Source: Metabacillus dongyingensis (GTDB taxonomy: Bacteria > Bacillota > Bacilli > Bacillales > Bacillaceae). From it: a stretch of DNA of 64,000 nucleotides. Both the position numbers and the translations under genes were made by a program. How positions within the stretch are numbered: position 1 is the stretch's first letter; every line of letters starts with the position of its first letter. The notes under the pieces were generated by a model, which ran no database searches, was not told the DNA's origin, and saw only the letters and a list, made by a program, of their open reading frames with translations. Positions 10,963 through 56,677 of the stretch are shown here, in pieces. The stretch covers positions 3,784,001 through 3,848,000 of the forward strand of contig NZ_CP082944.1 in the NCBI RefSeq assembly GCF_019933155.2. The letters run 5' to 3'.

Positions 10963-11080
10963 AAAAGCGGAATCGCCCGGTTAGCTCAGGCATGACAGAT
11001 AAGGATCCGACAGAAAAGGCGCTTTTTGCCTTTACTGGCGGATCCGTTCTGGCAGAGGAGCTGGGCGATGGAGCTGGACA
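10963..11080 (+). repeat. Dispersed structured repeat, copy A
   Basis: Begins AAAAGCGG. Outer arms ATCGCCC (10972-10978) and GGGCGAT (11063-11069) enclose an inner hairpin around the AAAAGGCGCTTTTTGCCTTT segment. It shares long stretches with copies F, G and H (GACAGATAAGGATCC, CCGTTCTGGC). Non-coding. Confidence 0.85.
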
Positions 11081-11086
11081 ACACCG

Positions 11087-11215
11087 AAAAGCGGAACCGC
11101 TTGGTTAGCTCAGGCATGACAGATAAAAAATCCCCGGAAAAGTCCGGGTTTGACTTTATCGGGGATTGCGTTCCTGACCGAGGGGCTAGGAGGCAAAGCG
11201 AAAAGCGGCATGACT
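11087..11215 (+). repeat. Dispersed structured repeat, copy B
   Basis: Starts AAAAGCGGAACCGC seven bases after copy A and shares GGTTAGCTCAGGCATGACAG with it. The inner hairpin has diverged to AATCCCCG and CGGGGATT with a further GAAAAGTCCGGGTTTGAC core. The outer arms are poorly conserved. Copies A and B lie head to tail. Confidence 0.75.
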
Positions 11216-11264
11216 TCTAAAATCTCTAATAAAACTGCTAACCAAGCTCAGATTGGCAGAACAT

Positions 11265-11415
11265 TTAGCCAAATATGAAATTTTATTAGCCAAAACTTCA
11301 TATTTACTGGCGGAACATCCGTTTTATTTAGCGGATTCTGGAATTAATTTAGCCGTTTATTTTTGTTTAGCCGTTTTCTTTTCTATTTTGTAAAAACTCC
11401 AAATTTATTAGCTCC
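11265..11415 (+). repeat. Degenerate array of TTAGCC motifs
   Basis: AT-rich non-coding stretch with TTAGC(C/G) at 11265, 11286, 11328, 11349 and 11367, and TTAGCTCCG near 11408. The spacings of 21, 42, 21 and 18 bases suggest a decayed tandem repeat with a unit near 21 bases. AAATATGAA (11271) and TTCATATTT (11297) could pair. No gene is seen here. Confidence 0.4.
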
Positions 11416-11447
11416 GTAAATTTAAAGTTGAGAAAATTTCACTATTT

Positions 11448-12206
11448 TTATTGATTCCCAATACAATGATACATTAGAATGCCCGCTGCAATTCCTGCAT
11501 TTAAGGATTCTGCTTTTCCTAGAATCGGAATGTAAAGATTTTGATCAGTTTGCTGAAGATATTCTTTATTTACTCCGCTTCCCTCATTGCCAATAAGCAG
11601 ACCAAATGAAGGTGCTGCTTCGGTTTTACGATAATCAACGCCATTTTGAAGCGAGGTTCCATATATAGAGACATTTTGCTGTTTAAGCTCTGGGATTGCC
11701 TGATTCAATTTTCTTTTTACGATTGGAATATGAAAGATTGATCCCTGACTGGAACGGACAACCTTTGAATTGTATGCATCCACGGTTCCGTCTCCAAGTA
11801 TGACCCCATCCATCCCTGCTGCATCTGCAGTCCTGATGATTGTTCCCAGATTGCCCGGGTCCTGAATGGCATCTATCAGCACGACCTTTTTCCAGGCACT
11901 TATTTCGTGCTTTTCTGATTGAACACAGACTGCAGCTGCACCCTGCGGGGATTCTGTTTCAGAGATTGCTTTCATGATTTCTTTCGTGACATATATAATC
12001 GGCAGATCATCCGCATTCCAATGTGATGGAATGGATGCTTCTTCTGAAATGATCAATTCTTTAATCACTGATTTATCTTTTAAGGCTTCTTCTACTAAAT
12101 GCAAGCCTTCAATTAAAAATGTATTCGTTGTGTCACGTTCTTTTTTGGTATGTAATTTACGCCATTGCTTTACCTTTTGATTTTGTACAGATTCAATTCG
12201 TTTCAC
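11448..12206 (-). CDS. ysgA: TrmH/SpoU-family RNA methyltransferase (YsgA-like)
   Basis: A 252-residue SPOUT methyltransferase with an N-terminal substrate-binding region (residues 1-100, IEGLHLVEEAL near 33). The C-terminal knotted domain carries the three SpoU motifs: DPGNLGTIIRTADAAG near 118, IGNEGSGV near 207 and IPILGKAESLNAGIAAGILMY near the end. The modified nucleotide is not known for this subgroup; 23S rRNA is the likely target. The start is GTG at 12206, eight bases after AAGGAG. Confidence 0.9.
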   Translation of the reverse strand: MKRIESVQNQKVKQWRKLHTKKERDTTNTFLIEGLHLVEEALKDKSVIKELIISEEASIPSHWNADDLPIIYVTKEIMKAISETESPQGAAAVCVQSEKHEISAWKKVVLIDAIQDPGNLGTIIRTADAAGMDGVILGDGTVDAYNSKVVRSSQGSIFHIPIVKRKLNQAIPELKQQNVSIYGTSLQNGVDYRKTEAAPSFGLLIGNEGSGVNKEYLQQTDQNLYIPILGKAESLNAGIAAGILMYHCIGNQ

Positions 12207-12278
12207 GATTACTGCTCCTTTATAGCCGCTTTTCTTCTATATAATTAATGGACCTTAATATTCTGCTTTTAACTATTG

Positions 12279-12392
12279 TCTGCTGACCGCCCAACTTCTT
12301 GTCCAGAACGGCTTCGCCATAAATGTCAAAACCGGGCTTTTATGGCGGAGCCTTTCCGGTCTGTCGGAGCTAAACGGGCATTTTCACTTTTC
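12279..12392 (-). repeat. Dispersed structured repeat, copy C (inverted)
   Basis: Read on the minus strand it runs AGAAAAGTGAAAATGCCCG, then GACAGACCGG and CCGTTCTGGAC, ending GTTGGGCGG. TGCCC and GGGCG form the outer arms. Orientation is opposite to copies A and B. It fills most of the ysgA-sspI interval. Confidence 0.7.
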
Positions 12393-12480
12393 TATATTAT
12401 ATCTTATAAAACATACATAAAAAACACAAAATAACGCAGGATATAGATAGGTAAATATTATAAGAGGTGGAGTGATTATC

Positions 12481-12693
12481 ATGGATTTAAATTTAAGAAA
12501 TGCCATTATCTCAAATGTATCAGGCAATGATCAAGGTCAGCTTGAGGATACGATTGTAGATGCAATTCAAAACGGCGAAGAAAAAATGCTTCCTGGCTTA
12601 GGCGTTCTGTTCGAAGTAATCTGGCAGAATTCCAGCGAGGATGAGAAAAATGAAATGCTGACGATTCTTGAAGAGGGTTTAAAGAAGAAATAA
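12481..12693 (+). CDS. sspI: Small acid-soluble spore protein SspI
   Basis: A 70-residue forespore protein matching the SspI family along its length ([45 protein letters not shown]). SspI is a minor SASP of the spore core. The start is ATG 12481 behind AGGTGGAGTGA, not the weaker codons 9 bases upstream. It is convergent with ysdC, as in B. subtilis, with a terminator between. I could not identify a SigG promoter with confidence. Confidence 0.95.
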
Positions 12694-12718
12694 ATGCTGG
12701 GCAGACTGCCCAGCATTT
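12692..12718. terminator. Terminator after sspI
   Basis: Perfect 11-base stem, AAATGCTGGGC (12692-12702) and GCCCAGCATTT (12708-12718), followed by T residues. It lies between the convergent genes sspI and ysdC. Confidence 0.9.
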
Positions 12719-12727
12719 TTATGTTAT

Positions 12728-13813
12728 TTAATCAAAGGTAATCGTTTTAACGGTTTCTTCGTCTAGACGTTTAATAACCTCAGTAATTAATTTCACTGCA
12801 TTTTCATAATCATCCCGATGCAGCATGGCAGCATGAGAATGGATATATCTAGTAGCAATTGTAATGGAAAGAGCAGGAACGCCATTCGCTGTCATATGGA
12901 TTGCACCTGAGTCTGTTCCTCCGCCTGCAATCGCGTCAAATTGATATGGGATGCTGAGTTCATCGGCAATACCGACAACAAAATCACGCAATCCTTTATG
13001 AGACACCATTGATGCGTCATAAAGAATAATTTGCGGGCCTTCACCCATTTTACTTGATGCTTCCTTCTCTGAAATTCCTGGTGTATCACCTGCGATTCCA
13101 ACATCAACGGCAAATCCAATATCAGGCTGTATAGCATGTGCAGACGTACGTGCTCCGCGAAGCCCTACTTCCTCTTGAATCGTACCCACACCATATACAA
13201 CGTTTGGATGTTCAGCATCTTTCAGCCCTTTTAAGACATCAATTGCAATTGCACAGCCGATGCGGTTATCCCACGCTTTCGCAAGCAGCATCTTTTCATT
13301 GTTCATAACCGTAAATTCAAAATACGGGACGATTTGATCTCCAGGCAATACACCGAACTCCATTGCTTCTTCACGGCTTGATGCCCCGATATCAATAAAC
13401 ATATCTTTAATGTCGACCGGTTTTTTTCTCATTTCAGGAGGAAGGATATGCGGCGGTTTAGAACCGATAACACCTGTAACATCTCCTTTTTTTGTAGTGA
13501 TTGTCACACGCTGTGCAAGCATAACCTGTGACCACCATCCGCCTACCGTCTGAAAACGAAGAAATCCTTTATCATCAATTTGAGTGACCATAAAGCCAAC
13601 CTCATCTAAGTGGCCGGCAACCATAATTTTCGGGCCGCCTTCTTTTCCTGTTTTTTTGGCGATTAAGCTCCCAAGACCGTCTGTTGTTACCTCATCGGCA
13701 TATGCCGTTATGTATTTCTTCATGACTTCTCTCGGCTCTCTTTCATTGCCGGGAATGCCTTTTGCATCTGTTAAATCTTTCAGCATCTGCAGTGTTTCAT
13801 CTAATTTCGCCAT
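12728..13813 (-). CDS. ysdC: M42 family metallo-aminopeptidase (YsdC)
   Basis: A 361-residue M42 glutamyl aminopeptidase/endoglucanase-like enzyme, normally a large tetrahedral dodecamer with two metals per active site. Metal and catalytic motifs are visible: [10 protein letters not shown] near 67, [10 protein letters not shown] near 180, [11 protein letters not shown] near 213, [11 protein letters not shown] near 236 and a late [12 protein letters not shown] histidine motif. Physiological substrates are short peptides. Cytosolic. Confidence 0.93.
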
Positions 13814-13875
13814 TCATTTACCCCCCTCTTTTACTATTTCCTATTATACTAAACACTGGAAAGTAATTCAAAATC

Positions 13876-14364
13876 TTAATAGCCCTGTTTTTGACGATCA
13901 TGGTTTACTTCATTCTTTTTTACATAAGCAGCCTCAATTTCTTCAGCTGAAAATCCAAGAACTTTTCCAAGCAAAAGATACTGCTGAAACAGTTCTAGAT
14001 AGTGTTCTTCAGAATGGCTTTTTTCAAACTGCGCAATCTTTTCATATACATGAACAAAATGTGCTGTTAAAGAAACACCTTCATCGAACAGTTCAAATTC
14101 ATTACTCTCTGTCATGCCAATCTCAATTCCAAGCGATAAAATGAAATGTATGCCATCCACATACTCCTCAAGAATGACACTAGTTTCAGCTGGAGGTTTT
14201 AAACTCCAAAATTTAAAGCACCTTGTTTCATTGGCAAGTTCGCCAACTTCAACAAGCAAAGCTAAAATTTTCTTTTCTAGCAGCGATTCCTCTTCCAGGC
14301 CGTGCTGTTTTTCAATTTTCGAATCAAGTTCCTTCTGCATCTCAAATAATTTCAATAAATTCAT
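13876..14364 (-). CDS. Dimeric dUTP diphosphatase (dUTPase_2 family)
   Basis: A 162-residue all-alpha NTP pyrophosphatase. EVGELANETRCFKFW near residue 39 and LEEYVDGIHFILSLG near 64 provide the two ExxE/ExxD metal sites of the MazG/dimeric dUTPase superfamily; FKFWS is typical of the dUTPase branch. It would hydrolyse dUTP to dUMP and limit uracil in DNA. Divergent from ysdB. Confidence 0.85.
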   Translation of the reverse strand: MNLLKLFEMQKELDSKIEKQHGLEEESLLEKKILALLVEVGELANETRCFKFWSLKPPAETSVILEEYVDGIHFILSLGIEIGMTESNEFELFDEGVSLTAHFVHVYEKIAQFEKSHSEEHYLELFQQYLLLGKVLGFSAEEIEAAYVKKNEVNHDRQKQGY

Positions 14365-14444
14365 TGTTTATCACTCCTATACTCCGCCAAGTTTACCACT
14401 TACACTTGTTTACTTCAAAAAAATTTAATCATATATAAAAAAAC

Positions 14445-14471
14445 TGAAACCTTATGAATGCTTCATTCGTA
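14445..14471 (+). promoter_or_regulatory. SigW-type ECF promoter of ysdB
   Basis: TGAAAC (14445-14450), 17 bases, then CGTA (14468-14471), 32 bases before the ysdB start codon. This matches the known SigW consensus TGAAAC-N16/17-CGTA, and B. subtilis ysdB belongs to the SigW regulon. Confidence 0.8.
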
Positions 14472-14502
14472 TTGTAACAAAATACGTTTGGGAGGCACTG
14501 CC

Positions 14503-14898
14503 ATGATAGTAATCCTGTTACGATTACTTTTGCTTGTTCTTATTGTCTTTGTCCTTTATTCCCTAGCAAAATATGTGCTGAATCCCAAGCGGAAGCTTGA
14601 GCTTGCACAGGAAAAAAAGCAGTTTTTTCTGCTTGATGAGCGTGACAACGTGCGCAAAAACTTCTTGTTGACTTACAAGGGTGTTTTGTTCGAAGGCGAG
14701 AAATACCTTGGAACAACGGATCAGGCGTTTGAGGTTGTATCCATCTTTATTTGGACCGGCAGCCTAAGTAAACTTCAAGGGCTCTCCCTCTCTGATTTTG
14801 AATTTGTAGAAGAAAAAGTGAGGGAACGATATCCTCATGCTGCTCTTGATTGGAAAAGTCCCGTGAAAGAATTCTTGTTAAAAACCCAAAAGCCGTGA
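14503..14898 (+). CDS. ysdB: SigW-regulated membrane-anchored protein YsdB
   Basis: A 131-residue protein with one N-terminal membrane anchor (IVILLRLLLLVLIVFVLYSL, residues 2-21) and a soluble domain containing NPKRKLELAQEKKQFFLLDE and DNVRKNFLLTYKGVLFEGEKY, which match YsdB. The function is unknown; SigW control suggests a role in cell-envelope stress. The start is ATG 14503 behind GGGAGGC, not the upstream frame opening at 14458, which precedes the -10 element of the promoter. Confidence 0.9.
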   Translation: MIVILLRLLLLVLIVFVLYSLAKYVLNPKRKLELAQEKKQFFLLDERDNVRKNFLLTYKGVLFEGEKYLGTTDQAFEVVSIFIWTGSLSKLQGLSLSDFEFVEEKVRERYPHAALDWKSPVKEFLLKTQKP

Positions 14899-14915
14899 CA
14901 TAGGTCACGGCTTTT
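14888..14915. terminator. Bidirectional terminator, ysdB and VTT gene
   Basis: Perfect 12-base stem AAAAGCCGTGAC (14888-14899) with GTCACGGCTTTT (14904-14915) and a four-base loop. It overlaps the coding ends of both convergent genes. Confidence 0.9.
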
Positions 14916-15513
14916 GCATGGTTTTTGCAAAAAAATCATGCCATTTTATAATAACTCTTTTTTCTCTCAGCAAATAGACAAATAAAATCAGTGTACCAAT
15001 TAATACGATTGTTGTAACAAGAGAGAATTTCCCAAAGTATGCCCCAAAAGATGTAAAACAAAAAGCTGCAGGTATATGAGTCCAAAATGAAAGCTTTGCG
15101 TAGTCTTTAAATGAAGTCGACCGATCAAGGATACATAACGATAAAATGGAAAAGTTAACGAACGGGATCATTCTGAGTACAATAATTTGCCCTACAGAAA
15201 GTCTCGTATAGCTTCCAAGCCATTTTTTCTTTAATCCTGAAAAACGTTCCAAAAAAGAAGGAAATTGTTTAGATAGGGTATAAAAACTTATGCTTGCGAC
15301 AGTCAGGCCAATAATGGAATAAAAGGTACCAAATTGAGTGCCAAATAAAATTCCGCCAATGATGCAGATGACAACTACAGGAATGAACAAAAACTGTCTT
15401 AAAATGTGCATAAAGATAAAAAAAAGCGGAGCTAGAAAGCCTGTTGACTGAACCGTTGAAACGACTGCAGAAGTTGCAAGATCGATTGTCCTCACCTCTT
15501 TCATGCAGTTCAT
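14905..15513 (-). CDS. VTT/DedA-like (TVP38/TMEM64) membrane protein
   Basis: A 202-residue membrane protein with about five hydrophobic segments. The VTT-domain patterns are FLFIPVVVICIIGGILFG near residue 41 (re-entrant loop with a G-x-x-x-G step), a cytosolic segment, then the arginine- and proline-containing VLRMIPFVNFSILSL near 112. Family members are thought to be lipid scramblases or flippases or H+-coupled transporters; the substrate here is unknown. The start is uncertain: ATG 15513 has a weak ribosome-binding site and the ATG nine bases downstream is an alternative. Confidence 0.8.
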   Translation of the reverse strand: MNCMKEVRTIDLATSAVVSTVQSTGFLAPLFFIFMHILRQFLFIPVVVICIIGGILFGTQFGTFYSIIGLTVASISFYTLSKQFPSFLERFSGLKKKWLGSYTRLSVGQIIVLRMIPFVNFSILSLCILDRSTSFKDYAKLSFWTHIPAAFCFTSFGAYFGKFSLVTTIVLIGTLILFVYLLREKRVIIKWHDFFAKTMQKP

Positions 15514-15569
15514 AAGATGACTTTTTGTGAGAATCGTGTGTACTAAATTGTATCTAATTCAAAGCAGTA

Positions 15570-15842
15570 TTATGACATCTTAAATAAAAAATAGCCCAAC
15601 AGGAAGAGATGAATAATCATCAAAGCAGGCAGACCGACAACAAAAGATTGATGCTTCGTTTTGTGTCTGAAAGCGTTCATTCCAATTGTCAGCCCGATCG
15701 CTCCCCCAATGAAGCCAATAAGCCAAAGATTGCTTTCTTTAATTCTCCATTGTCCCTTTTTAGCTTTATTTTTATCTGCTCCCATTAAATAGAAGCCATA
15801 AATATTCAGCAATATGTAATAACTGATCAAAAGCGCCATCAT
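15570..15842 (-). CDS. ysdA: DUF1294 membrane protein YsdA
   Basis: A 90-residue membrane protein of the DUF1294 family. It has an N-terminal membrane segment followed by MGADKNKAKKGQWRIKES, then GFIGGAIGLTIGMNAFRHKTKH with a conserved FRHKTKH, and a last membrane segment. Function unknown. I choose ATG 15842, which sits six bases after AAAGG; an ATG six bases upstream is possible. Confidence 0.85.
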   Translation of the reverse strand: MMALLISYYILLNIYGFYLMGADKNKAKKGQWRIKESNLWLIGFIGGAIGLTIGMNAFRHKTKHQSFVVGLPALMIIHLFLLGYFLFKMS

Positions 15843-15859
15843 CTTCATCCTTTCTATAA

Positions 15860-15983
15860 GAAAAGCGCAAGTGCCCGTTTAACTCTGTCATGACAGATAA
15901 GAATCCGGCAGAAAAATCCGGGTTTGACTATATTGACGGAATTGTTCTGACCGAGGTGTCAGGCGCTTCCGCTTGCCATCCAA
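15860..15983 (+). repeat. Dispersed structured repeat, copy D
   Basis: Begins GAAAAGCGCAAGTGCCCG, shares GTCATGACAGATAAGAATCC and TTCTGACCGAGG with the other copies and ends AGGCGCTTCCGCTT. AGTGCC and GGCGCT pair with one G-T wobble. The inner AAAAATCCGGGTTTGAC segment resembles copies B and E. Confidence 0.8.
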
Positions 15984-16027
15984 GCGCAAAATTCTATCTT
16001 CCTTATCCATTTTAAAATAATGAGAAA

Positions 16028-16060
16028 AAAGGCCATTCTCAAACGGTGAGAATGACCTTT
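16028..16060 (-). terminator. Terminator of infC-rpmI-rplT
   Basis: A 14-base stem, AAAGGCCATTCTCA (16028-16041) with TGAGAATGACCTTT (16047-16060), one mismatch, with a T run on the minus strand. Confidence 0.9.
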
Positions 16061-16069
16061 CTGCAGCGA

Positions 16070-16429
16070 TTAGCTGTTTAATTTTGCTTTAGCAGCGTCT
16101 GCTAATTGAGCAAATGCTTGAGCATCAGTTACAGCAAGCTCAGCAAGCATTTTGCGGTTTACTTCGATGCCAGCAAGCTTTAAGCCATGCATTAAACGGC
16201 TGTAAGAAAGACCATTCAAGCGAGCAGCTGCGTTGATACGAGTAATCCAAAGCTGACGGAAATCGCGTTTTTTCTGACGGCGATCGCGGTAAGCATACAT
16301 TAATGATTTCATTACTTGCTGGTTAGCAACTTTGTATAATGTATGTTTTGAACCGTAATAACCTTTAGCTAATTTAAGAACTTTTTTACGTCTTTGACGT
16401 GAGACAGTACCGCCTTTTACTCTTGGCAT
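16070..16429 (-). CDS. rplT: 50S ribosomal protein L20
   Basis: A 119-residue basic ribosomal protein that binds 23S rRNA early in 50S assembly. It matches the family throughout ([47 protein letters not shown]). In low-GC Gram-positives L20 also represses its own operon by binding the leader upstream of infC; a leader of that kind is present here. Confidence 0.98.
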
Positions 16430-16456
16430 GTCAATTCCCTCCTATGTGAAAACGAA

Positions 16457-16657
16457 TTATTTAATATTATCTAATAAATGACGGATGCGTTTGAAGTCGC
16501 CTTTGCTTACTAAAGTGCCTTTGCGAAGTTTGCGTTTTGCTTTTGTAGATTTGTTAGCAAATAAATGGCTAGTATAAGCGTGTGAACGTTTTAATTTACC
16601 TGATCCAGTCTTTTTGAAACGCTTTGCAGCGCCGCGATGAGTTTTCATTTTTGGCAT
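16457..16657 (-). CDS. rpmI: 50S ribosomal protein L35
   Basis: A 66-residue, strongly basic protein starting [20 protein letters not shown], the L35 signature. RBS GAGGAGG precedes the ATG. It lies between infC and rplT, the standard order. Confidence 0.98.
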
Positions 16658-16678
16658 AAGGTATTCCTCCTCGTATCT

Positions 16679-17194
16679 TTACTTTTCTACTTTAGGTGCT
16701 AGAACCAAGAACATGCTGCGTCCATCCATTTTCGGATGTGACTCAATTGTACTTAAATCTTCACAAGCTTTAGAAAAACGGTCTAAAACACGTTGACCAA
16801 TTTCTTTATGAGTGATTGCACGGCCTTTAAAACGGATAGAAGCTTTCACTTTGTCTCCTTTTTCAAGGAACTTGCGTGCATTCTTAAGTTTTGTGTTAAA
16901 ATCATGCTCATCAATTGTCGGGCTGAAGCGAACCTCTTTAATACTGATGATCTTTTGATTTTTACGTGCTTCTTTATCTTTCTTTTGCTGCTCAAAACGG
17001 AATTTGCCGTAGTCCATAATACGACATACAGGTGGTTTCGCGTTTGCAGCAACTAAAACTAAATCAAGATTCGATCTGGCAGCAATCTCAAGCGCCTCTT
17101 GGCGAGATTTAATTCCAAGCTGGTCGCCATTTGCACCAATCAGACGAACCTCACGAGCGCGAATTCCATCGTTTACCATCATGTCTTTGCTAAT
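16679..17194 (-). CDS. infC: Translation initiation factor IF-3, probable ATT start
   Basis: IF-3 prevents premature 50S joining and proofreads initiator tRNA. The translation [20 protein letters not shown] and [20 protein letters not shown] is the IF-3 signature. The first ATG (17182) is 20 bases from GGAGGT and would remove the conserved SKD residues. ATT at 17194 sits eight bases after GGAGGT and gives an N-terminus of (M)[15 protein letters not shown] as in the family; an adjacent in-frame ATT at 17197 is also possible. Rare ATT starts in infC are well known and allow IF-3 to autoregulate. First gene of infC-rpmI-rplT. Confidence 0.93.
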
Positions 17195-17202
17195 AATTAG
17201 CC

Positions 17203-17405
17203 ACCTCCAAGGATTTTTAACTGAACAGATGAATTGTTTGTGCTACACTTTCTTGAAAAACAAAAAAGTGTGGGCGCACAAAACACCCACACTACGATTT
17301 AGTATACTAAGTATATATAGTCGTAAACCTGCAGACTGCAATAATGCGTCGATCAGGTGAGAAGCGGGTGCTTCTGCTTGCAAGACAAACTTCTATTCAA
17401 TTACC
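17203..17405 (-). promoter_or_regulatory. L20-type autoregulatory leader of infC-rpmI-rplT
   Basis: A leader of about 200 bases. On the minus strand it contains the GAAGCACCCGCTTCTCACC segment common in IF-3 leaders, and a terminator with stem AGTGTGGG (17267-17274) and CCCACACT (17286-17293) followed by six T. Known biology: L20 binding favours termination. The element is assigned from position and these sequences, not from a covariance model. Confidence 0.8.
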
Positions 17406-17411
17406 CTGCAA

Positions 17412-17441
17412 ATTATATCACGAAAAATTTTCCGCTGTCAA
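17412..17441 (-). promoter_or_regulatory. infC operon promoter
   Basis: -35 TTGACA (17436-17441) and -10 TATAAT (17412-17417), both perfect hexamers with 18-base spacing, as expected for a strong ribosomal-protein promoter. Confidence 0.85.
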
Positions 17442-17518
17442 GTCATGCTGGTTTATTGCAACAAAATGAATTGTATCAAACATTTACTGGATGTGCAATA
17501 CTTTTTTTTGAGAAGATT

Positions 17519-19450: not shown

Positions 19451-19484
19451 CCTTGTCACTCCTTAAATATAATTTTTTAAAAAA

Positions 19485-19750: not shown

Positions 19751-19753
19751 CGT

Positions 19754-19782
19754 ATTATAGAATCATTTCCAGGGGAAATCAA
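19754..19782 (-). promoter_or_regulatory. thrS promoter
   Basis: -35 TTGATT (19777-19782) and -10 TATAAT (19754-19759), spacing 17, directly upstream of the T-box leader. Confidence 0.75.
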
Positions 19783-19828
19783 GATTATTCAGCTTTTTTT
19801 ATAAGATAAGGTAGTATCAGCATTGGTG

Positions 19829-19948
19829 ACTGGCTTCATCTCCCAGCTCCCTTGCCAGAACAAATCCCGCCCAAAAAGTCAAACCCGAACTTTTCTGCCT
19901 GATTCTTATCTGTCATGCCTGGGCTAAATGGCCGTTTCCGCTTTTCTT
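19829..19948 (-). repeat. Dispersed structured repeat, copy E (inverted)
   Basis: On the minus strand it begins AAGAAAAGCGGAAACGG and shares CAGGCATGACAGATAAGAAT with copies A, B and D, ending TTCTGGCAAGGGAGCTGGG. The outer arms are degenerate. It separates the thrS leader from ytxC. Confidence 0.75.
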
Positions 19949-20910: not shown

Positions 20911-20953
20911 TCAAATCGCAGCATTTTTATACTTACTTTAAAATAAATAAAAA

Positions 20954-39138: not shown

Positions 39139-39162
39139 AATAATGACCTCCTGTTATGTAAT

Positions 39163-39288
39163 ATAAAAATGGAATCGCCTGGTTAACTCAAGCAGGCAGA
39201 TAAGGATCCGGCAGAAAAGGCGCTTTTTACCTTTGCTGGCGGAGCCGTTCTGGCCGAGGAGTCAGGCGATGGGCTCTACTTGAAAAGC
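39163..39288 (+). repeat. Dispersed structured repeat, copy F
   Basis: Outer arms ATCGCCT (39174-39180) and AGGCGAT (39264-39270), inner hairpin of GGATCCGGCAG and CTGGCGGAGCC around an AAAAGGCGCTTTTTACCTTT core. It inserts 5' of icd, inside the citZ-icd spacer. Confidence 0.85.
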
Positions 39289-41339: not shown

Positions 41340-41373
41340 TTTCTTACACCCTTTCAAACATGTATCTACTTAG

Positions 41374-41492
41374 AAAAGCGGAACCGCCTGGTTAGCTAAG
41401 GCAGACAGATAAGGATCCGACAGAAAAGGTGCTTTTTACCTTTGCTGGCGGAGCCGTTCTGGCCGAGGAGTTAGGCGGTGGAGCTGGACAAC
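41374..41492 (+). repeat. Dispersed structured repeat, copy G (first of a tandem pair)
   Basis: Outer arms ACCGCCT (41383-41389) and AGGCGGT (41473-41479). It is identical to copy H over nearly its whole length, offset 122 bases, so the duplication is recent or actively homogenised. Confidence 0.9.
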
Positions 41493-41494
41493 TT

Positions 41495-41612
41495 GAAAAG
41501 CGGAACCGCCTGGTTAGCTAAGGCAGACAGATAAGGATCCGACAGAAAAGGTGCTTTTTACCTTTGCTGGCGGAGCCGTTCTGGCCGAGGAGTTAGGCGG
41601 TGGAGCTGGACA
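41495..41612 (+). repeat. Dispersed structured repeat, copy H (second of a tandem pair)
   Basis: Outer arms ACCGCCT (41505-41511) and AGGCGGT (41595-41601); inner hairpin GGATCCGACAG with CTGGCGGAGCC. It ends shortly before the ytvI promoter region. Confidence 0.9.
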
Positions 41613-41679
41613 CGAGTATGGAAATTAATATCCTTTCTTATCCTATAAAAATTCTGAATGAAAAACAGGAGGGAAACAT

Positions 41680-48224: not shown

Positions 48225-48390
48225 AACGTTGCCTCCTTTTCTATGAAAATAATTCGGTGTCTTTAGAAATGATCTCTTTTAGCCATATCTATCTACTTTA
48301 ACGAACCATCTTCAATTTTTTTGTAAAAAGGTGTCATGTCCTATTCGACATTTTCTTTAACCTATCGGAATTCATTAATTCCAGCATCTA

Positions 48391-48450
48391 TCTGCCTAAC
48401 TTTTCGGTCAGAGCTTTTTCTGCCTGTCGGAGCTGACCAGGGCGCTTGAG
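48391..48450 (-). repeat. Shortened structured repeat, copy I, overlapping the end of the GntR gene
   Basis: On the minus strand it reads AAGCGCCCTGGTCAGC, CGACAGGCAGAAAAAG, then AGTTAGGCAG: the left third and the right edge of the repeat, with the middle missing. It supplies the last 14 or so codons and the TGA of the GntR gene. Confidence 0.7.
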
Positions 48451-49064
48451 TTTTTCTTGCTTGTTAGAGTGTAAAAAGATTCAAAAACCATCTTTTCATC
48501 TTTTGAAGCAAGTCCGTCAATTATTTTTTCATAAAAAATGGCGCTGACTGAATGCTGATCCGTCTGTATTACTTTTAAATACTCATTCAGTACAGTCCAT
48601 ATCCTGAGTAAAAGATAGTTGTCCGACAGCTGCATGAACTTAGCCATAATTTCCATATGTCCCAGGTTCTGCTTCTGAATAGCGATGGCGAGATTCTTTA
48701 ACTCTTCACCATTATTATCTTTCTCAAGCAATAGCTTTAATGCATTTGATTCCAAAAGAACGTTCATTTCGATTAAATCGGCGATAGCATTCTTATCCTG
48801 TAAAATAAACGTTCCGAGAATTTCAACAAGAGCATTTTCGCGGAAATCCTTAATATAAGTTCCATCACCGCGTCTTGTTTCAATCATTCCAAGCAGCTCG
48901 AGCGCCCGAAGTGCTTCTCTGACTGATGATCTTCCTGCATTTAAACGTTCTGCGAGCTCTCGTTCAGATGGTATTTTATCTCCTGCTGAAAGACCGTCTT
49001 CGTGGATAAAGGACCTGATTTGACGAAGTATCTCAATATACACTTTCGACTTCGGTTCAGTCAC
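48408..49064 (-). CDS. FadR-subfamily GntR transcriptional regulator
   Basis: A 218-residue regulator with an N-terminal winged helix (GDKIPSERELAERLNAGRSSVREALRALELLGMIETRRGDG is the GntR signature; here given as PSERELAERL near 32 and SVREALRALELLG near 47) and an FCD-type all-helical effector domain. It lies directly after ytsJ (10 bases) and before accDA, so it may respond to a carboxylate or acyl-CoA signal; the ligand is unknown. The C-terminal 14 residues (NSSALVSSDRQKKL) are encoded by repeat copy I and are probably not ancestral. The start is GTG 49064 with a weak ribosome-binding site. Confidence 0.85.
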   Translation of the reverse strand: MTEPKSKVYIEILRQIRSFIHEDGLSAGDKIPSERELAERLNAGRSSVREALRALELLGMIETRRGDGTYIKDFRENALVEILGTFILQDKNAIADLIEMNVLLESNALKLLLEKDNNGEELKNLAIAIQKQNLGHMEIMAKFMQLSDNYLLLRIWTVLNEYLKVIQTDQHSVSAIFYEKIIDGLASKDEKMVFESFYTLTSKKNSSALVSSDRQKKL

Positions 49065-49074
49065 TGTACACCAC

Positions 49075-50310: not shown

Positions 50311-50433
50311 CTTCTCACTCCTTAGGGTCATATTGGAGGTGGTCTGACCACTCCAGCCAATAATAAATCATAACATATTTTTAGTTATTGTAAAGTCTTG
50401 TATTTTATAACTTACCGTTTAAATGTGCCGGAT

Positions 50434-53400
50434 TTATTCTTTCACTGCAACATTCTGATTGCCCAAAAGGTCTTTCAGCTCAGATAAACATCGGTCATTC
50501 CCATCCACAAAGTAGTCTCTTGGCAGCTGGACGGTTCTTTTGTCCTTCTCATAATAGAGAAAAACAGGTGTGCTGCCGCGATGACGTTTGAGAGTATCTT
50601 GTACAGTCTGCAGTTTCCCTTCAGCCAGATGAGTCTCTTCAATTTTAAGGAATAGTGTTTTCGTTCTTTTCTCGAGATCCTGGGTAGTCTCTGCATCCGA
50701 TATAATCAGCTGCATCCGATCGTTGCGATTCTCAATCTTCCCGCTGAGTACAGCGACTTTTCCTTGAGAAAAGATTTCACCTGCTTTAGTATAAACAGAC
50801 GGAAAAGCCACCGCTTCAAGTTCCCCGCTCTCATCACTTAATGCAAGAAACGCCATAACCTCACCTTTTTTTGTCCGGATTGTGCGTATTGCTGTAATAA
50901 ATACCCCAATCTTCACCTTTTGATGAAGTAATTGCCGGGCATCACTGATTTTTACAATCCCATACCTATTAAATAAAAATGAGTGCGCTGATGCAGGATG
51001 ACTTGAAAAGTAAAATCCCAGTGCTTCCTTTTCGAATTTAAGCATTTCTTCAATTTTGAACGGTTCAACTTCTATATATTTCGGCTTTATACTAAATTCT
51101 TCCTCTTCTAAAAATAAATCATATTGATTTTCATCATCTGAAGAAAAAAGGGCTGCATGCTCGATAGCTAAATCAAGACTCGCAAGGAGCGTAGATCTTT
51201 CCACTTCAAACTCATCCATTGCACCTGAAAAGATAAGAGATTCCATCACTTTTCGGTTGACGATTTTCGTTGATACCCTCACACAAAAATCAAATAGATC
51301 GGCAAACTCCCTTTTCTTTCTTGCCTGATATATTTCTTTAACAGCATTTGTTCCAACATTTTTAATTGCATTCAGACTAAACCGGATGCTGCCCTTTTCT
51401 ACAATAAAAGGATATTCGCTCCTGTTAATAGATGGCGGCAAGACAGCAACACCTCGCTGCTTGGCCTCTCTAATATATTGAGCCACTTTTTCATCATTGC
51501 CGATCACACTTGTTAAAAGCGCCGCCATAAAATAAACAGGGTAATGGGCCTTTAAATAAGCAAGCTGAAACGAAATCATGCTGTAGGCAACAGCATGGCT
51601 CCTGTTAAATCCGTAGTTGGCAAATTTAACAATTAAATCATAAATACTGTTTGCAGAAACTTCATCATAGCCGTTATTAATGCAGCCTGATACAAAATGT
51701 TCTCTTTCCTGATCAAGCATCTCTTTAATTTTTTTTCCTACTGCTCTTCTCAATAAATCAGCTTCACCCAAAGAAAACCCAGCCATTTTCGAAGCTATTT
51801 CCATGATTTGCTCCTGATACACGATTACCCCATTGGTTGTCTTTAAGATAGGCTCTAGAGCAGGGTGCGGGTATTCGATCTTTTCTCTCTGATGCTTCCG
51901 ATTTATAAATAGAGGGATATTTTCCATTGGCCCCGGGCGAAAAAGGGCATTTACGGCCACTATATCTTCAAGATCAGTTGGTTTCAGCCGTCTAAGAACG
52001 CTCCGCATTCCATCAGACTCCAGCTGAAAGACCCCAGTTGTATCTCCTTGCCCGAGAAGTTCAAATGTTTCTTCATCCTTATATGAAATTTGGGAGAAAT
52101 CGATTTTCTTTTTCTCATTCCGTTCAATAAGACCTGTTATTTTTTCGATTAGTGTCAAGTTTCTCAATCCAAGAAAATCCATTTTCAGCAAACCGAGGTC
52201 TTCAAGGTAATCCATCGAAAACTGAGTTAAATAAATGCCGTTGTGCCCATCCTGAATGGGAATGATGTCCGTTAACGGCTCGCTGCTGAGCACTACACCG
52301 GCAGCATGTGTGGATGTATGGCGCGGAAGCCCTTCTATCTTCATGGCCGTTTCATAAATTTTCTTATAAAGATCCGATTCCGAAAGAAGGCTTTGCAGAT
52401 CTTTGGACTCTGAATAAGCCTGCTTTAAAGTTGTACCTGGTTTAGAAGGAATGAGTTTGGCCAATACATCTGATTCTTTTGCTGATGCTCCCATGACTCT
52501 CCCGACATCCCGAAGCGAAGCTTTAGCTGCAAGCGTACCGAATGTCACAATTTGAGCAACATGCATGGACCCGTATTTTTCTGCAACATAGGCAATCATT
52601 TCATCCCGTTTTGTATCAGGAAAATCAATGTCTATATCGGGCATGTTGATTCGTTCCGGATTTAAAAACCGTTCAAATAAAAGATGGTGTTCTATCGGAT
52701 CTACATCTGTAATCTTTAATACGTATGCTACAAGGGATCCTGCAGCAGACCCCCTCCCAGGTCCCGTCAAAATGTGATGATCGTGGGCATACTTCATAAA
52801 GTCCCAAACGATTAAGAAATAATCACTGAACTTCATTTGTTTAATAACATCCAGTTCATACTCGAGCCTTTTAAAATATGTATCTTTGGGTTCTGAAAAA
52901 CGGTGTTTCAATCCTTGCAGGCAGAGTCTCTCCAAATATTCATCAGGCGATTGGCCGCCTGGTGCAGGGTATTTCGGAAGCTGTGTTTTTCCAAGCTCAA
53001 GAGATACATTACATTCTTTTGCAATCTTCAGCGTATTCTCCAAGGCTTCGGGACAATCTTGAAAAAGTTCAGCCATTTCAGACGGTGATTTAAAATAATA
53101 CTGATTCGAAGGCAATGCATAATCGCTGTCATCTTCCATTTTTGAGCCATTTTTAATAGACAGCAAACAATTATGTGCAAAGGCATCCTCTTTTTCTATA
53201 TAATGAACATCATTTGCTGCTACAAGCGGAAGGCCTGTCTGAATGCTTATTTGGAGCAGTTCTTCAGCCATTTTAAGTTCATCATGAAGGAAATGCTTTT
53301 GAGCAGATAAATAAAAGTCTCCTTCATTAAAAAGGCTTCTGTATATCTTTAAAATCTTGACTGCTTCTTCACTGTTTCCCTCTTGTATATACTTTTCAGC

Positions 53401-53796
53401 AAGCCCAGTTCTTCCAGGGGTAAACGCAATTAAACCGCCGCTGTAGGATTTCAGCCATCTGCTCTTAATTCCTTCAGGCGATTTTGTTTGCAGAACACTG
53501 CTTATTTTCAATAGATTCCGGTAGCCGTCGTTATTTTTAGCAAGCAATACCAGGGGATACCCTGTAGTTTCATCGGTCTCCTCTAAAATGACTGAAGCTG
53601 TCAGTCCGATAATTGGCTTTATGCCGTGTTTTTTGCATTGTTTATAAAAAGCAATCGCTCCATACATCGTGTGAAAATCTGTAATAGCGAGAGCCTTTAA
53701 TTGAAATGATTCAGCTTTTTCAATTAACTTGTTAATTCTTGCTGAACTGTTCAGCAGACTGTAGGCACTTTGAACTTGAAGGTGAACAAATGGCAA
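50434..53796 (-). CDS. dnaE: DNA polymerase III alpha subunit DnaE
   Basis: A 1120-residue DnaE polymerase. The N-terminal PHP domain is FVHLQVQSAYSLLNS with FHTMYGAIAFY. The polymerase core shows GPGRGSAAGSLVAYVLKITD and the catalytic aspartates in NMPDIDIDFPDTKRDE near 387, then HTSTHAAGVVLS. The HhH and OB-fold domains are C-terminal. In Gram-positives DnaE extends RNA primers before PolC takes over. No downstream gene overlaps; repeat copy J lies upstream. Confidence 0.97.
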   Translation of the reverse strand: MPFVHLQVQSAYSLLNSSARINKLIEKAESFQLKALAITDFHTMYGAIAFYKQCKKHGIKPIIGLTASVILEETDETTGYPLVLLAKNNDGYRNLLKISSVLQTKSPEGIKSRWLKSYSGGLIAFTPGRTGLAEKYIQEGNSEEAVKILKIYRSLFNEGDFYLSAQKHFLHDELKMAEELLQISIQTGLPLVAANDVHYIEKEDAFAHNCLLSIKNGSKMEDDSDYALPSNQYYFKSPSEMAELFQDCPEALENTLKIAKECNVSLELGKTQLPKYPAPGGQSPDEYLERLCLQGLKHRFSEPKDTYFKRLEYELDVIKQMKFSDYFLIVWDFMKYAHDHHILTGPGRGSAAGSLVAYVLKITDVDPIEHHLLFERFLNPERINMPDIDIDFPDTKRDEMIAYVAEKYGSMHVAQIVTFGTLAAKASLRDVGRVMGASAKESDVLAKLIPSKPGTTLKQAYSESKDLQSLLSESDLYKKIYETAMKIEGLPRHTSTHAAGVVLSSEPLTDIIPIQDGHNGIYLTQFSMDYLEDLGLLKMDFLGLRNLTLIEKITGLIERNEKKKIDFSQISYKDEETFELLGQGDTTGVFQLESDGMRSVLRRLKPTDLEDIVAVNALFRPGPMENIPLFINRKHQREKIEYPHPALEPILKTTNGVIVYQEQIMEIASKMAGFSLGEADLLRRAVGKKIKEMLDQEREHFVSGCINNGYDEVSANSIYDLIVKFANYGFNRSHAVAYSMISFQLAYLKAHYPVYFMAALLTSVIGNDEKVAQYIREAKQRGVAVLPPSINRSEYPFIVEKGSIRFSLNAIKNVGTNAVKEIYQARKKREFADLFDFCVRVSTKIVNRKVMESLIFSGAMDEFEVERSTLLASLDLAIEHAALFSSDDENQYDLFLEEEEFSIKPKYIEVEPFKIEEMLKFEKEALGFYFSSHPASAHSFLFNRYGIVKISDARQLLHQKVKIGVFITAIRTIRTKKGEVMAFLALSDESGELEAVAFPSVYTKAGEIFSQGKVAVLSGKIENRNDRMQLIISDAETTQDLEKRTKTLFLKIEETHLAEGKLQTVQDTLKRHRGSTPVFLYYEKDKRTVQLPRDYFVDGNDRCLSELKDLLGNQNVAVKE

Positions 53797-53852
53797 TCTA
53801 TGTTCCCATCCTTTCTGACAGCTATAAATTGTATAAAATTTTGTTCATCTAT

Positions 53853-53902
53853 GTCTAGCTCCACCGCCTGACTACTTGGCCAGAACGGCTCCGCTTTTCT
53901 AA
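53853..53902 (-). repeat. Internally deleted structured repeat, copy J
   Basis: On the minus strand GAAAAGCGG is joined directly to AGCCGTTCTGGCC and continues to TCAGGCGGTGGAGCTAGAC. The left arm and inner hairpin are missing. Confidence 0.75.
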
Positions 53903-54013
53903 CAATCCCATAGTAATATTATATTCCTGTTTGAAAAGTGACACAAATTGAAGCTTTCTCATCACATACTTCCCACTGTTTGTCCATATACATTAGTAAG
54001 GGGATGATGAAAA

Positions 54014-54352
54014 ATGGAGGTTAAAGAAGCTTTTATACCAGCCTTTATTAATAGTTATTTTATAGCGCTCGGAGTAATCTTAGGCGGTTCAATCATCGGC
54101 GGCGTAGGAGCATACTTAGCCGGAGAGCCTCCTCTGTCAACGATTTACAGCCTTGCAAACAGATTGAAAATTTGGGCGCTTGTCGCTGCAATCGGCGGTA
54201 CGTTTGATACGTTTTACAGCTTTGAAAGAGGATTTTTCGAAGGTGAAACACGGGATGTCATCAAGCAGATTCTGCTTATTATATCAGCAATGGGCGGGGC
54301 ACAGACTGGCTGGCTTCTTATTTCATGGCTGACACAGGAGCAGCCTCAATGA
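54014..54352 (+). CDS. ytrH: Sporulation membrane protein YtrH
   Basis: A 112-residue membrane protein with three hydrophobic segments (SYFIALGVILGGSIIGGVGAYL near 13, LKIWALVAAIGGTFDTFYSFE near 45, QILLIISAMGGAQTGWLLISW near 84). It matches the YtrH family, which is made under SigE in the mother cell and needed for efficient sporulation. Overlaps ytrI by ATGA. Divergent from dnaE. I did not find a convincing SigE promoter. Confidence 0.92.
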   Translation: MEVKEAFIPAFINSYFIALGVILGGSIIGGVGAYLAGEPPLSTIYSLANRLKIWALVAAIGGTFDTFYSFERGFFEGETRDVIKQILLIISAMGGAQTGWLLISWLTQEQPQ

Positions 54353-54852
54353 GAATACCGCCTTTATACAAAAGACCTTCCTGGCAGCGACTTTTCGCAG
54401 GAATGGTTCTCGGCGCCGTCGTCAGCTGGTGTATCTTTCTCTTTATTTACGGGGAATGGCAGGAAGAGCTTATTACCAAGATTGAAGATCAGGCATATAC
54501 AATTGAGGAATTAAAAAAAACAAATATAAGCTATAAAGAAGAAATTGAGACTCTTAATAAAATAAATCAGGAAAAACTGAGGGTCCAAAACATCCATGTG
54601 ACACTGATCAATGGGGAAAGGTATCAATTCACGTCACTTATGACCTATATGATCCAAGATCATGTAAAAGAGGATATTTCTGACGTCATTGCAAAGGATT
54701 TGGAAAGTGTTTATAAAAGCCGGAAGCTGATGAAAAAAGCCATTGAAAATAAGGTATATAAAATTGATGACAAGCAGTATAAGGTAGAAATTGAGGAAAT
54801 GTTCATATACACCACTCTTTTCATTGAGCTTAAAGTAGCATTCGCAAAGTAG
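54349..54852 (+). CDS. ytrI: Sporulation membrane-associated protein YtrI
   Basis: A 167-residue protein with one N-terminal membrane anchor (LFAGMVLGAVVSWCIFLFIYG) and a coiled-coil region (QEELITKIEDQAYTIEELKK), then an alpha/beta domain. Partner of YtrH in B. subtilis sporulation. The start is ATG 54349 in the ATGA overlap; an upstream in-frame opening at 54325 lies within ytrH coding sequence. Confidence 0.9.
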   Translation: MRIPPLYKRPSWQRLFAGMVLGAVVSWCIFLFIYGEWQEELITKIEDQAYTIEELKKTNISYKEEIETLNKINQEKLRVQNIHVTLINGERYQFTSLMTYMIQDHVKEDISDVIAKDLESVYKSRKLMKKAIENKVYKIDDKQYKVEIEEMFIYTTLFIELKVAFAK

Positions 54853-55020
54853 AAACCGGGACTTAACGAACCGAACAAATGGCTCAAGTATAAACATATC
54901 TAAATAAATTGAATTATTTTTTGAAATTTCAATTAATTAAATCGCACTCCCTCGCGTCTTTGGGGTAAAATGGTAATAGCATCAGACCCGGTCACCCACT
55001 ATAAAGAAGGAGGGAATGTG

Positions 55021-55203
55021 ATGTATGTATTAAATCACAAAAAGATGGCCCGCGAAAAAGCAGAACGGCTGAAAGAAGGTTTCTCCGCTTATGCAGAGTC
55101 TGCGGAGCTCGCTTCATTAATTAAAAAAGAACTGCTTTCACAAGGACTGACCTTCCATGAAGATTCTACAGAATTTGGATATTGGTTTATTCCTGTTAAA
55201 TAA
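55021..55203 (+). CDS. ytzJ: Small conserved protein YtzJ
   Basis: A 60-residue soluble protein (MYVLNHKKMAREKAERLKEG, then LTFHEDSTEFGYWFIPVK) resembling B. subtilis YtzJ and found in the same place beside nrnA. Function unknown. The start is ATG 55021 after AAGGAGGGAATGTG; an in-frame opening at 54970 has no ribosome-binding site. Confidence 0.8.
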   Translation: MYVLNHKKMAREKAERLKEGFSAYAESAELASLIKKELLSQGLTFHEDSTEFGYWFIPVK

Positions 55204-55208
55204 AGCGA

Positions 55209-56144
55209 TTAACCCTGACACACCTTTTCGAGATCTGCTAGAACCTGCTTTGCTTCTTCCCAATTATAAATCGATGCCCCGGAAGCAAGCGGGTGACCTC
55301 CGCCGCGGTATTTCTTTGCCAATTCATTGATAATCGGTCCTTTAGATCTTAATCGTACTCTAATTTGATCGGATTCCTCTACAAAGAAGACCCATGCCCG
55401 AAGACCTTCAATATTGCCAAGCATACCAACCAATTGTGAAGCCTCAGAAGCACTTACTTCAAATTTATCGAGAATTTCTTTTGTCAGGATCATCGAGGCA
55501 GCACCGGAAGATGACAGTTTGAAATTTTGCAGAACGTATCCGCTCAGCTTTGCAGCATTCACCTTTGTCTTATATAACTCATCATAAATTTCAGTGAAAG
55601 CAAAGTTGTACTCGACTAGCTCACTTGCGTATTTCAGCGTTTTTTTCGTTGTGCTCGGAAAAAGAAAACGGCCTGTATCTCCCACTATGCCTGCATAAAT
55701 CAGCTGAGCTGCTTTATCAGGCAAAATAAGTCCATCTTCTTTCCCTGAAAGATAAAATTCATAAATCATTTCACTGACAGAACTTGCATTTGTATCAACC
55801 CATAATAGATCTCCATACGGATCTTCATTAGGATGATGATCAATCTTAATTAATTTCGCGCCTGTATGGTAGCGCTGATCACAAATACGCTCCTGATTGG
55901 CTGTATCACAGACAATCACTAAAGCGCCCTCAAAATCCTGGTCTGTTACGGTGTCCATTTTGTACAAAAATTCAAGAGTCGGCTCCCCAAGTCCCGCAAG
56001 TAAAACTTTCTTATCAGGAAATGATGCTTTAATGATTTCAGCTAATCCGCACTGTGATCCGTATGCATCCGGATCAGGCCGCACATGCCTGTGAATAATG
56101 ATCGTTTGATTTTCTTTTATGGCTGACAGTATTTCACTTTTCAT
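55209..56144 (-). CDS. nrnA: Bifunctional oligoribonuclease/PAP phosphatase NrnA
   Basis: A 311-residue DHH-DHHA1 phosphoesterase that degrades nanoRNAs (2-5 nt) and hydrolyses 3',5'-phosphoadenosine. The DHH metal motifs are IIIHRHVRPDPDAYGSQCGL near 15, VIVCDTANQERI near 81, IDHHPNEDPYGD near 105 and AGIVGDTGRF near 151. The DHHA1 nucleotide-binding motif GGGHPLASGA is near 283. It is convergent with ytzJ. Confidence 0.95.
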   Translation of the reverse strand: MKSEILSAIKENQTIIIHRHVRPDPDAYGSQCGLAEIIKASFPDKKVLLAGLGEPTLEFLYKMDTVTDQDFEGALVIVCDTANQERICDQRYHTGAKLIKIDHHPNEDPYGDLLWVDTNASSVSEMIYEFYLSGKEDGLILPDKAAQLIYAGIVGDTGRFLFPSTTKKTLKYASELVEYNFAFTEIYDELYKTKVNAAKLSGYVLQNFKLSSSGAASMILTKEILDKFEVSASEASQLVGMLGNIEGLRAWVFFVEESDQIRVRLRSKGPIINELAKKYRGGGHPLASGASIYNWEEAKQVLADLEKVCQG

Positions 56145-56291
56145 ATGTAATCTCCTTTGCGTACCTGCTTATAGACTAATTAAATCATAAAAACCACCGT
56201 GCAGAAAAGCGAATCTTCTCTTTGGTTATGGCAATTCACTGCAAGAATGATTAAAATAGAGGATGTAAGTTTAATATGGAGGTTTTACTTA

Positions 56292-56588
56292 ATGCCTGTA
56301 TTCGTAATTCTGATCATCTTTGCATTTTCCTTTTATCTCTTCTATAAAGTGAAATTCTACAGAACAAAAAAACCTATGGAGAAGCAGTGGCTCTCTGCAA
56401 AATCAAGCATTGCACTTGGAATTTTCGTCTTTTTCTTTGGACTCAATCAATTATTTCTTTTTCATTCAACTGTATCATTAGTCGTTGGAATCATTTTTAT
56501 GATCGTCGGACTCGCCAGCAGCTGGGCAGGATATAAAGCTTATAAACATTATTTGCCTTTTGCCGTCAAGGAATCCAAACAAGGCTGA
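56292..56588 (+). CDS. ytpI: YtpI family membrane protein
   Basis: A 98-residue protein with three membrane segments and the YtpI-like sequence MPVFVILIIFAFSFYLFYKV, then AKSSIALGIFVFFFGLNQLF and AGYKAYKHYLPFAVKE. Function unknown. ATG 56292 follows GGAGGTTTTACTTA; the frame opens 93 bases upstream without a ribosome-binding site. Divergent from nrnA. Confidence 0.88.
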   Translation: MPVFVILIIFAFSFYLFYKVKFYRTKKPMEKQWLSAKSSIALGIFVFFFGLNQLFLFHSTVSLVVGIIFMIVGLASSWAGYKAYKHYLPFAVKESKQG

Positions 56589-56593
56589 TTAAA

Positions 56594-56677
56594 AAAGCGG
56601 AAGCGCCTTGGTCAGTGCAGGCATGGCAGAGCCTGCACTGACCGGGGAGTTAGGCGCTGCCGCCTGCCATCAAAATG
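56594..56677 (+). repeat. Compact structured repeat, copy K
   Basis: Outer arms AGCGCCT (56602-56608) and AGGCGCT (56652-56658), and a perfect 13-base inner stem GGTCAGTGCAGGC (56610-56622) with GCCTGCACTGACC (56631-56643). It retains the fold of the family with a changed and shorter interior. Confidence 0.85.

Follow-up and report, generated by a model that had tools for sequence, protein, structure and literature searches.

How could a short hairpin come to stand in more than a hundred copies on one bacterial chromosome, about nine times out of ten in the same orientation relative to the replication fork? This question is raised by a stretch of 64,000 nucleotides (hereafter the window; positions 3,784,001 to 3,848,000 of contig NZ_CP082944.1, assembly GCF_019933155.2) from Metabacillus dongyingensis, whose 5.42-Mb genome (G000) comprises a main contig (C1) of 5.05 Mb and a second contig (C2) of 362 kb. 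A sequence-only reading of the window had described a dispersed, structured repeat of roughly 120 bp, the arms of which change together. The repeat is real, with 11 copies in the window and at least 132 in the genome, and it occurs in 32 of 40 related genomes, the own genome included. The arm pairs quoted for copies A, F, G, H, K and D read as stated, and neither of the two outcomes named as telling against the repeat, few copies or a lack of paired changes, was found genome-wide, where two-sided changes occur in 26 of 30 pairs. However, its most striking property had been overlooked, that is, 120 of the 132 copies are oriented against the leading strand. The best explanation, to which we give a probability of roughly 0.55, is that the repeat is a non-autonomous mobile hairpin, which would be inserted via a single-stranded stage coupled to the replication fork.

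The unit is about 122 nt long, near-palindromic, and predicted to fold as one long bulged hairpin; with a 3' tail it measures about 147–153 nt at two empty sites described below. A covariance model was built from 28 genomic copies, five of which lie in the window, so that the E-values of the window copies are partly circular. In the genome search, 150 of 1865 first-look candidates were scored, which makes the count of 132 at E ≤1e-3 a lower bound (BLAST gave 54), and all of these copies are located on C1. With arrays merged, 103 of 115 are oriented against the leading strand. Below 2.45 Mb there are 50 minus and 4 plus copies, and above it 70 plus and 8 minus copies, while the GC skew flips its sign between the 2.0–2.5 and 2.5–3.0 Mb bins. 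From the GC skew and the coding bias (78% of the coding bases in the stretches analysed are on the inferred leading strand), it follows that the strand reading AAAAGCGG has lagging (Okazaki) strand sense in the 120 copies. The earlier statement that copies occur in both orientations is correct for the window (7 plus, 4 minus), but it is misleading for the chromosome because the repeat is strongly polarised by replication genome-wide. The window, with 4 of its 11 copies against the genome-wide polarity, is atypical.

Does this orientation simply follow the genes? With genes called by a home-made open reading frame (ORF) caller, 130 of the 132 copies share at most 60 bp with any called ORF, and the spacers, where the repeat had been said to lie mainly, thus hold it almost exclusively. 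In gene-symmetric spacers the polarity amounts to 47:5 arrays (p ~1e-9), with 30:2 between convergent and 17:3 between divergent genes, and in spacers between two lagging genes it is still 4:1 arrays. Since the bias holds where gene direction is symmetric, the orientation is independent of the genes in the own genome, and a gene-following orientation, of the terminator or 3' untranslated region (3'-UTR) type, is rejected. The polarity is found in every score class, with 46/49 among copies of at least 100 bits, 44/50 between 60 and 100 bits and 30/33 below 60 bits. Equal bias in consensus-like and weaker copies is as expected if the orientation is set at insertion.

The polarity was also examined in other genomes, among them G005, which of the genus members G001–G006 is the nearest relative of G000. 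Here an origin-terminus split was fitted, arrays were merged more coarsely than in the own-genome count, and the result was compared with shuffles. The first list, with 150 of 175 matches, contained 24 of 27 matches for G021, 26 of 30 for G015, 30 of 34 for G007, 44 of 48 for G032 and all 20 for G036, with G027 excluded; the second list (146 matches) was used whole; and 150 of 231 matches were available for the distant genomes (93/118 in G284, 34/71 in G174 and 23/42 in G167). The split comprises 96/108 arrays in G000 and 98/114 in G005, a level reached in 0/200 shuffles each, and two other families are split similarly, with 83/92 in G284 and 26/29 in G174 (0/500 shuffles each). According to GC skew and coding bias, the sense in G284 is the same as in the own genome, while G174 is known for the split alone. 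The stretches of G284 used in other parts of this work were chosen around majority-orientation copies, and orientation counts within them are uninformative on polarity. Judged from these counts, replication polarity is present in three lineages, namely the own genus, G284 and, for the split alone, G174. Because about nine of ten copies are oriented one way relative to the moving fork in several genomes, it is suggested that the repeat spreads by riding on DNA replication.

Is the repeat mobile, then? Copies D and E of the window are shared by G000 and G005, and the five other genomes of the genus lack them. Copy D is lacking in G001, G002, G003, G004 and G006, with an insert of about 153 bp relative to G001, whereas for copy E it is G001 and G006 that have a near-clean empty site, the insert measuring about 147 bp, and G005 carries a partly deleted copy. 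On the evidence of these near-clean empty sites, the repeat is mobile. At both sites the junction is ambiguous by no more than 1–3 bp of A/T, and there is no longer target duplication. The repeat could also be an ordinary miniature inverted-repeat transposable element (MITE), moved as double-stranded DNA by a DDE transposase in random orientation, one orientation being purged later because a stable hairpin in the template of the lagging strand would stall forks or be lost by deletion. The unit is indeed short, non-coding and intergenic, and in tail-type copies the two termini, by reading, are weakly similar in inverted orientation (TAAGAAAAG / CTTTCTTA). Convergent-gene spacers are enriched (37/130 copies versus 32/239 element-free spacers) and divergent-gene spacers are depleted (22/130 versus 74/239), a pattern like that of parasites eliminated from promoters. 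However, the polarity is no weaker in consensus-like copies than in weaker ones, the empty sites lack the longer duplication, and no gene-carrying relative was found with profiles of the two unit halves in about 1.46 Mb of stretches from the own genome, G005 and G284. Among the five spaced pairs that were left after filtering in this screen, four are nested G284 units and the fifth (L082) is a lone 3' end, with no relevant-looking gene between the halves. We therefore regard the MITE as an unlikely explanation.

Further gains and losses can be seen at individual sites. By reading of the alignment, the pheS site has no unit in G003 and G004 and one to four units in the other members of the genus; the site of copy F has two units in G005, and that of copies G and H has one. 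Arrays shared by G000 and G005 often differ in unit number and inner stems, while their flanks are 84–99% identical, and many arrays terminate in a partial unit. Where two units adjoin, the 5' unit has the higher score in 15/17 pairs of G000 and in 19/24 pairs of G005 (3 lower, 2 ties), which suggests that new units are added on the 5' side of existing copies in these two genomes. The 5' flanks show an A/T-rich, TTAATAA-like preference (87 flanks), and CAA[TC] is enriched (8/42 against a background of 2.9%). At the site of copy C, G001, G006 and G002 retain end pieces alone, as if the interior of the hairpin had been deleted. In G284 (L319, L332, L330, L324 and others), units are nested in units at one fixed position and in the same orientation, after GGACCGAA and before GCGACTCGAG with small variations; both junctions are present in 10 of 12 printed cases, and the right one alone in 2. 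These nested units may represent repeated targeting or a spreading composite.

The fold itself can be followed over a wide range of copies. For two single copies it is stronger than that of dinucleotide shuffles (z -3.56 and -5.97). Two-sided change was found in 13/30 pairs of the 28-copy alignment, and in the 134 own-genome matches, which include 3 reverse-strand matches, 88.3% of the pair cells are paired versus 80.8% after shuffling and 25–52% after sliding. Two-sided change extends to 29/30 pairs in an alignment of 86 copies drawn from many genera (50 loci), and 95.3% of the pair cells are paired versus 66.1% after shuffling (0/500 shuffles as high); the alignments of 134 and 86 copies were fitted to the model and lean towards its structure. 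The claim that the arms change together is thus borne out. The conserved unpaired residues across genera are the GAAAAGCGG start, the CGACA / CGAGG internal loop and the AGCTnGACAA end, and large block changes of the inner stem are seen between otherwise similar copies. Judging by these alignments, the fold is under strong constraint across genera.

Which strand folds was approached by folding the copies with G-U pairing forbidden, a strand-symmetric procedure, and by counting 1x1 mismatches within helices. Among the 49 copies scoring 100 bits or more, 31 G.T mismatches stand against 4 A.C (23:1 by copies), whereas the ratio is 17:13 for the 50 copies of 60–100 bits and 7:7 for the 33 copies below 60 bits. 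Across genera it is 54:27 in all 86 copies (30:11 by copies, p 0.004), and in shuffle-corrected folding the forward strand beats the reverse one in 71/99. It follows from the score classes that consensus-like copies keep the AAAAGCGG strand foldable and old copies drift. Because the tolerance of G.T on one strand fades from consensus-like to degraded own-genome copies, the evidence tends to favour mobility as the constrained property over a function of each copy where it lies. Of the "selection or copying constraint" that the sequence-only reading had proposed, the constraint on the fold is therefore supported, with the weight on mobility and not on per-site function.

A functional, polar chromosome element (a signal for replication, segregation or the nucleoid, or a hairpin for single-strand initiation), with its orientation maintained by selection, would also account for a replichore polarity, and among the 150 scored candidates no match was found on C2 (0/132). 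Among the copies in L314–L333 of G284, a subfamily carries TTATNCACA, which is presumably a DnaA box motif, within 110 nt 3' of the unit, on the same strand in 9/42 copies and on the opposite strand in none, with a background of 0.003 per 110 nt. However, the same scored candidates gave no model match at 2.16–2.77 Mb of C1, about 620 kb near the terminus, where the skew flips sign; old copies lose the strand-specific mismatch signature; and positions are gained and lost. The distribution is patchy as well. In class and phylum surveys of 299 genomes each, with 12 candidates scored per genome, the repeat was found in at least 41 genomes of the class and in at least three of the phylum (the own genome, one of the same genus and one of the same order), and five members of a single genus within the same family were without any match. 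This makes a polar signal quite improbable. Among 80 pheS loci, the named carriers are Bacillus sp. HNG, Gracilibacillus halotolerans, Alkalihalobacillus sp. BA299, Bacillus sp. OV322 and a record titled Bacillus subtilis DE0224. Plasmid and phage records gave no match in blastn with one copy variant as query.

The covariation with conserved unpaired residues is RNA-like, and the one-strand excess of G.T could be read as G.U, so that one has to consider a structured RNA, or an element of 3'-UTRs, that is present in many copies and is selected for its RNA fold at every site; one copy (L301, 1501–1627) even lies inside the 16S-23S rRNA spacer in the same sense as the rRNA. Nevertheless, the favoured strand is mostly antisense to the neighbouring genes, the orientation ignores gene direction, and the mismatch signature is lost in old copies. 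Membership in an Rfam family is rejected. In the window only T-box and L20 leader reach the gathering score, neither of them over a copy, and no family does so over the copies at 6 own-genome and 20 other-genome loci. A selected RNA is accordingly very doubtful. The nearby noteworthy family is Bacillaceae-1 RNA (RF01690), which adjoins the repeat at L054 1148–1503 (three copies, 145 nt apart) and L295 1408–1475. Covariation without selection, via template switching in an imperfect palindrome (quasipalindrome correction, in which one arm is copied onto the other during replication), would make two-sided change possible in one step and agrees with the block changes of the inner stem, but it has little chance, as the internal loops and unpaired residues are conserved across genera instead of being perfected and consensus-like copies have G.T but few A.C intermediates.

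For the mobile hairpin coupled to the fork, the following course may be proposed, in which we infer the single-stranded stage and the insertion at forks. The element would spread in single-stranded form, as DNA or RNA, and the strand that folds would be the one reading AAAAGCGG. Insertion would take place at passing forks, the folded strand landing on the leading-strand template, that is, in Okazaki-strand sense. An enzyme supplied in trans would recognise the hairpin together with the unpaired residues at its start, internal loop and end, and existing copies may serve as addition sites, probably on their 5' side in G000 and G005, which would give head-to-tail arrays at fixed positions. A bolder version is a new class of fork-riding mobile hairpin in Bacillales-type bacteria that would either do without a dedicated transposase or employ a novel enzyme of the host, where folded single-stranded DNA or RNA would be built into nascent lagging strands, seed a site and accrete units on the 5' side of existing copies; this we consider rather unlikely.

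Several points weigh against the mobile hairpin, the first of which concerns the enzyme. Y1_Tnp (PF01797) had no match in the own genome among 12/12 scored candidates, with the control matched in 5/14 genomes, although a Y1 protein too diverged for the PF01797 model may have escaped this search. Y1_Tnp is present in 26/40 relatives, as IS200-like and as longer, weaker types, and absent from G001, G004, G005 and G006. Around 20 loci with the longer, weakly matching Y1 genes, which we take to be RAYT-like (12 relatives, 103,705 bases), there were 0 repeat matches at E ≤0.5, and a Y1/RAYT mobiliser is therefore not supported. Nor was there a specific candidate for a reverse-transcriptase mobiliser, since none of the three RVT_1 matches of the own genome (a Drt2-like and a group II intron-like one, which both stay under the NCBIfam cut-offs, and a piece with a stop) is tied to the repeat. 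The transposase with matching ends that the sequence-only reading had proposed to look for was not found in these searches. Secondly, the polarity is not significant in G021 (11/14; 126/200 shuffles as high), G032 (19/28; 123/200), G036 (10/11; 33/200) and G167 (13/16; 148/500), and it is suggestive without being significant in G015 (17/20; 12/200) and G007 (16/19; 15/200). G000 and G005 are not independent because they have loci in common. Two of the three copies scored solely in the window search (48376, 53850 and 56590) oppose the polarity, which may be lower among remnants left unscored by the genome search. Thirdly, of the 21 arrays at 3.43–3.915 Mb, 19 have a position that can be identified in stretches of G005, and a unit occupies 18 of these positions (16 detected by script, 2 more by reading), so that current mobility may be low. 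The score order is reversed in array L037 of G004, where 3/4 adjacent pairs rise towards 3', other genera have no consistent order along arrays, and the bit score as an age gauge depends on a model trained with G000 copies. With one copy per locus across genera, G.T:A.C is only 32:16 (18:8 by copies, p 0.08). Finally, insertion of IS200/IS605 elements goes into the lagging-strand template (PMC6006769), and the strand seemingly folded here is not that strand.

How does the repeat compare with known systems? In the same IS200/IS605 family, fork coupling and hairpin recognition are known for IS608 and ISDra2 (PMC6006769). The repeat resembles these elements in a polarity that follows replication (arrays of the own genome, G284 and G174 likewise, the six genomes named above not significantly) and in near-precise insertion without a long target duplication, and differs in that no tnpA was detected in the own genome. 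REPIN/REP elements are non-autonomous, extragenic and of high copy number, and form hairpins in single-stranded DNA or mRNA, for which single-strand processing by a Y1 enzyme (RAYT, TnpA_REP) was proposed (PMC3116915, PMC6006769); RAYT genes are often flanked by cognate REPs, while some Y1 subclasses are not (PMC6006769). The present repeat is similar in these traits, but two short, inverted REPs with a GTAG foot were not seen in the aligned units, the own genome has no detected Y1 transposase, and the RAYT-like genes at the 20 loci of relatives are unflanked by copies. The pneumococcal BOX, RUP and SPRITE repeats are likewise short, structured, intergenic and overrepresented between convergent genes, with 61–63% on the leading strand, mirroring genes (PMC3049150). 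The present repeat is about 90% on the opposite strand and gene-independent, so its polarity is stronger and opposite. The bcr1 repeat of Bacillus cereus, of about 150 bp (147–167), is folded, has mobile traits and reaches up to 130 copies, and it has been described as confined to the B. cereus group and linked with a TTTAT motif (PMC6542083, PMC2267715). Size, fold, mobility, copy number and Bacillaceae-type hosts are similar here; by that description, the B. cereus restriction and the TTTAT motif would set bcr1 apart. Integron attC sites are hairpin sites recombined as one folded strand. They have imperfect arms, unpaired bases and polar arrays; unlike attC/CALIN arrays, the repeat has no cassettes between units and is dispersed over the chromosome.

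On the whole, we rate the repeat as a kind of miniature replication-linked mobile hairpin. The literature searched, which was limited for subscription journals, does not name it, and absence from print is not claimed. A gene-independent replication polarity of about 90% in several lineages offers a natural read-out of the coupling between mobile DNA and the fork, and, where no Y1 transposase can be detected in a genome, the repeat provides a test case for a mobilising enzyme that is missing. Caution is also called for, since hairpins that covary in the spacers of Bacillaceae may be mobile DNA and not regulatory RNA.

The 11 window copies identified by the covariance model (8 of full length and 3 internally deleted) are listed in Table 1. 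All of them have E ≤5.4e-5 on the element strand, and five extra, weaker rows come from these near-palindromic copies being matched on the reverse strand as well. The strongest copies are also visible to a repeat finder without any model.

Table 1. Copies of the repeat in the window, with positions counted from its first nucleotide.
Copy	Position	Strand	Score (bits)	Description
A	10960..11082	+	145.1	full length; unit 1 of two-unit array
B	11084..11207	+	98.8	full length; array unit 2; inner stem differs from A by paired changes
C	12275..12394	-	75.7	full length; runs counter to genome-wide polarity
D	15858..16012	+	100.5	full length, with 3' tail; model match 15858-15980; right end approximate, A/T-rich
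E	19800..19948	-	99.4	full length, with 3' tail; model match 19825-19948; counter to polarity
F	39162..39283	+	106.9	full length; between isocitrate dehydrogenase and citrate synthase genes
G	41371..41492	+	138.7	full length; unit 1 of pair
H	41493..41614	+	135.7	full length; unit 2 of pair
I	48376..48458	-	30.9	internally deleted remnant
J	53850..53901	-	26.3	short remnant, only 5' start and 3' arm
K	56590..56671	+	42.2	central stem deleted, then tail-like sequence

The array of copies A and B is flanked by the T-box leader of pheS and a gene resembling rRNA methyltransferases, and copies G and H are 100% identical across 118 nt according to the repeat finder. Apart from the repeat, three related terminator-like palindromes are located at 62489–62521, 62636–62668 and 63686–63718 of the window, the outer two being 73% and 91% identical to the middle one (repeat finder).

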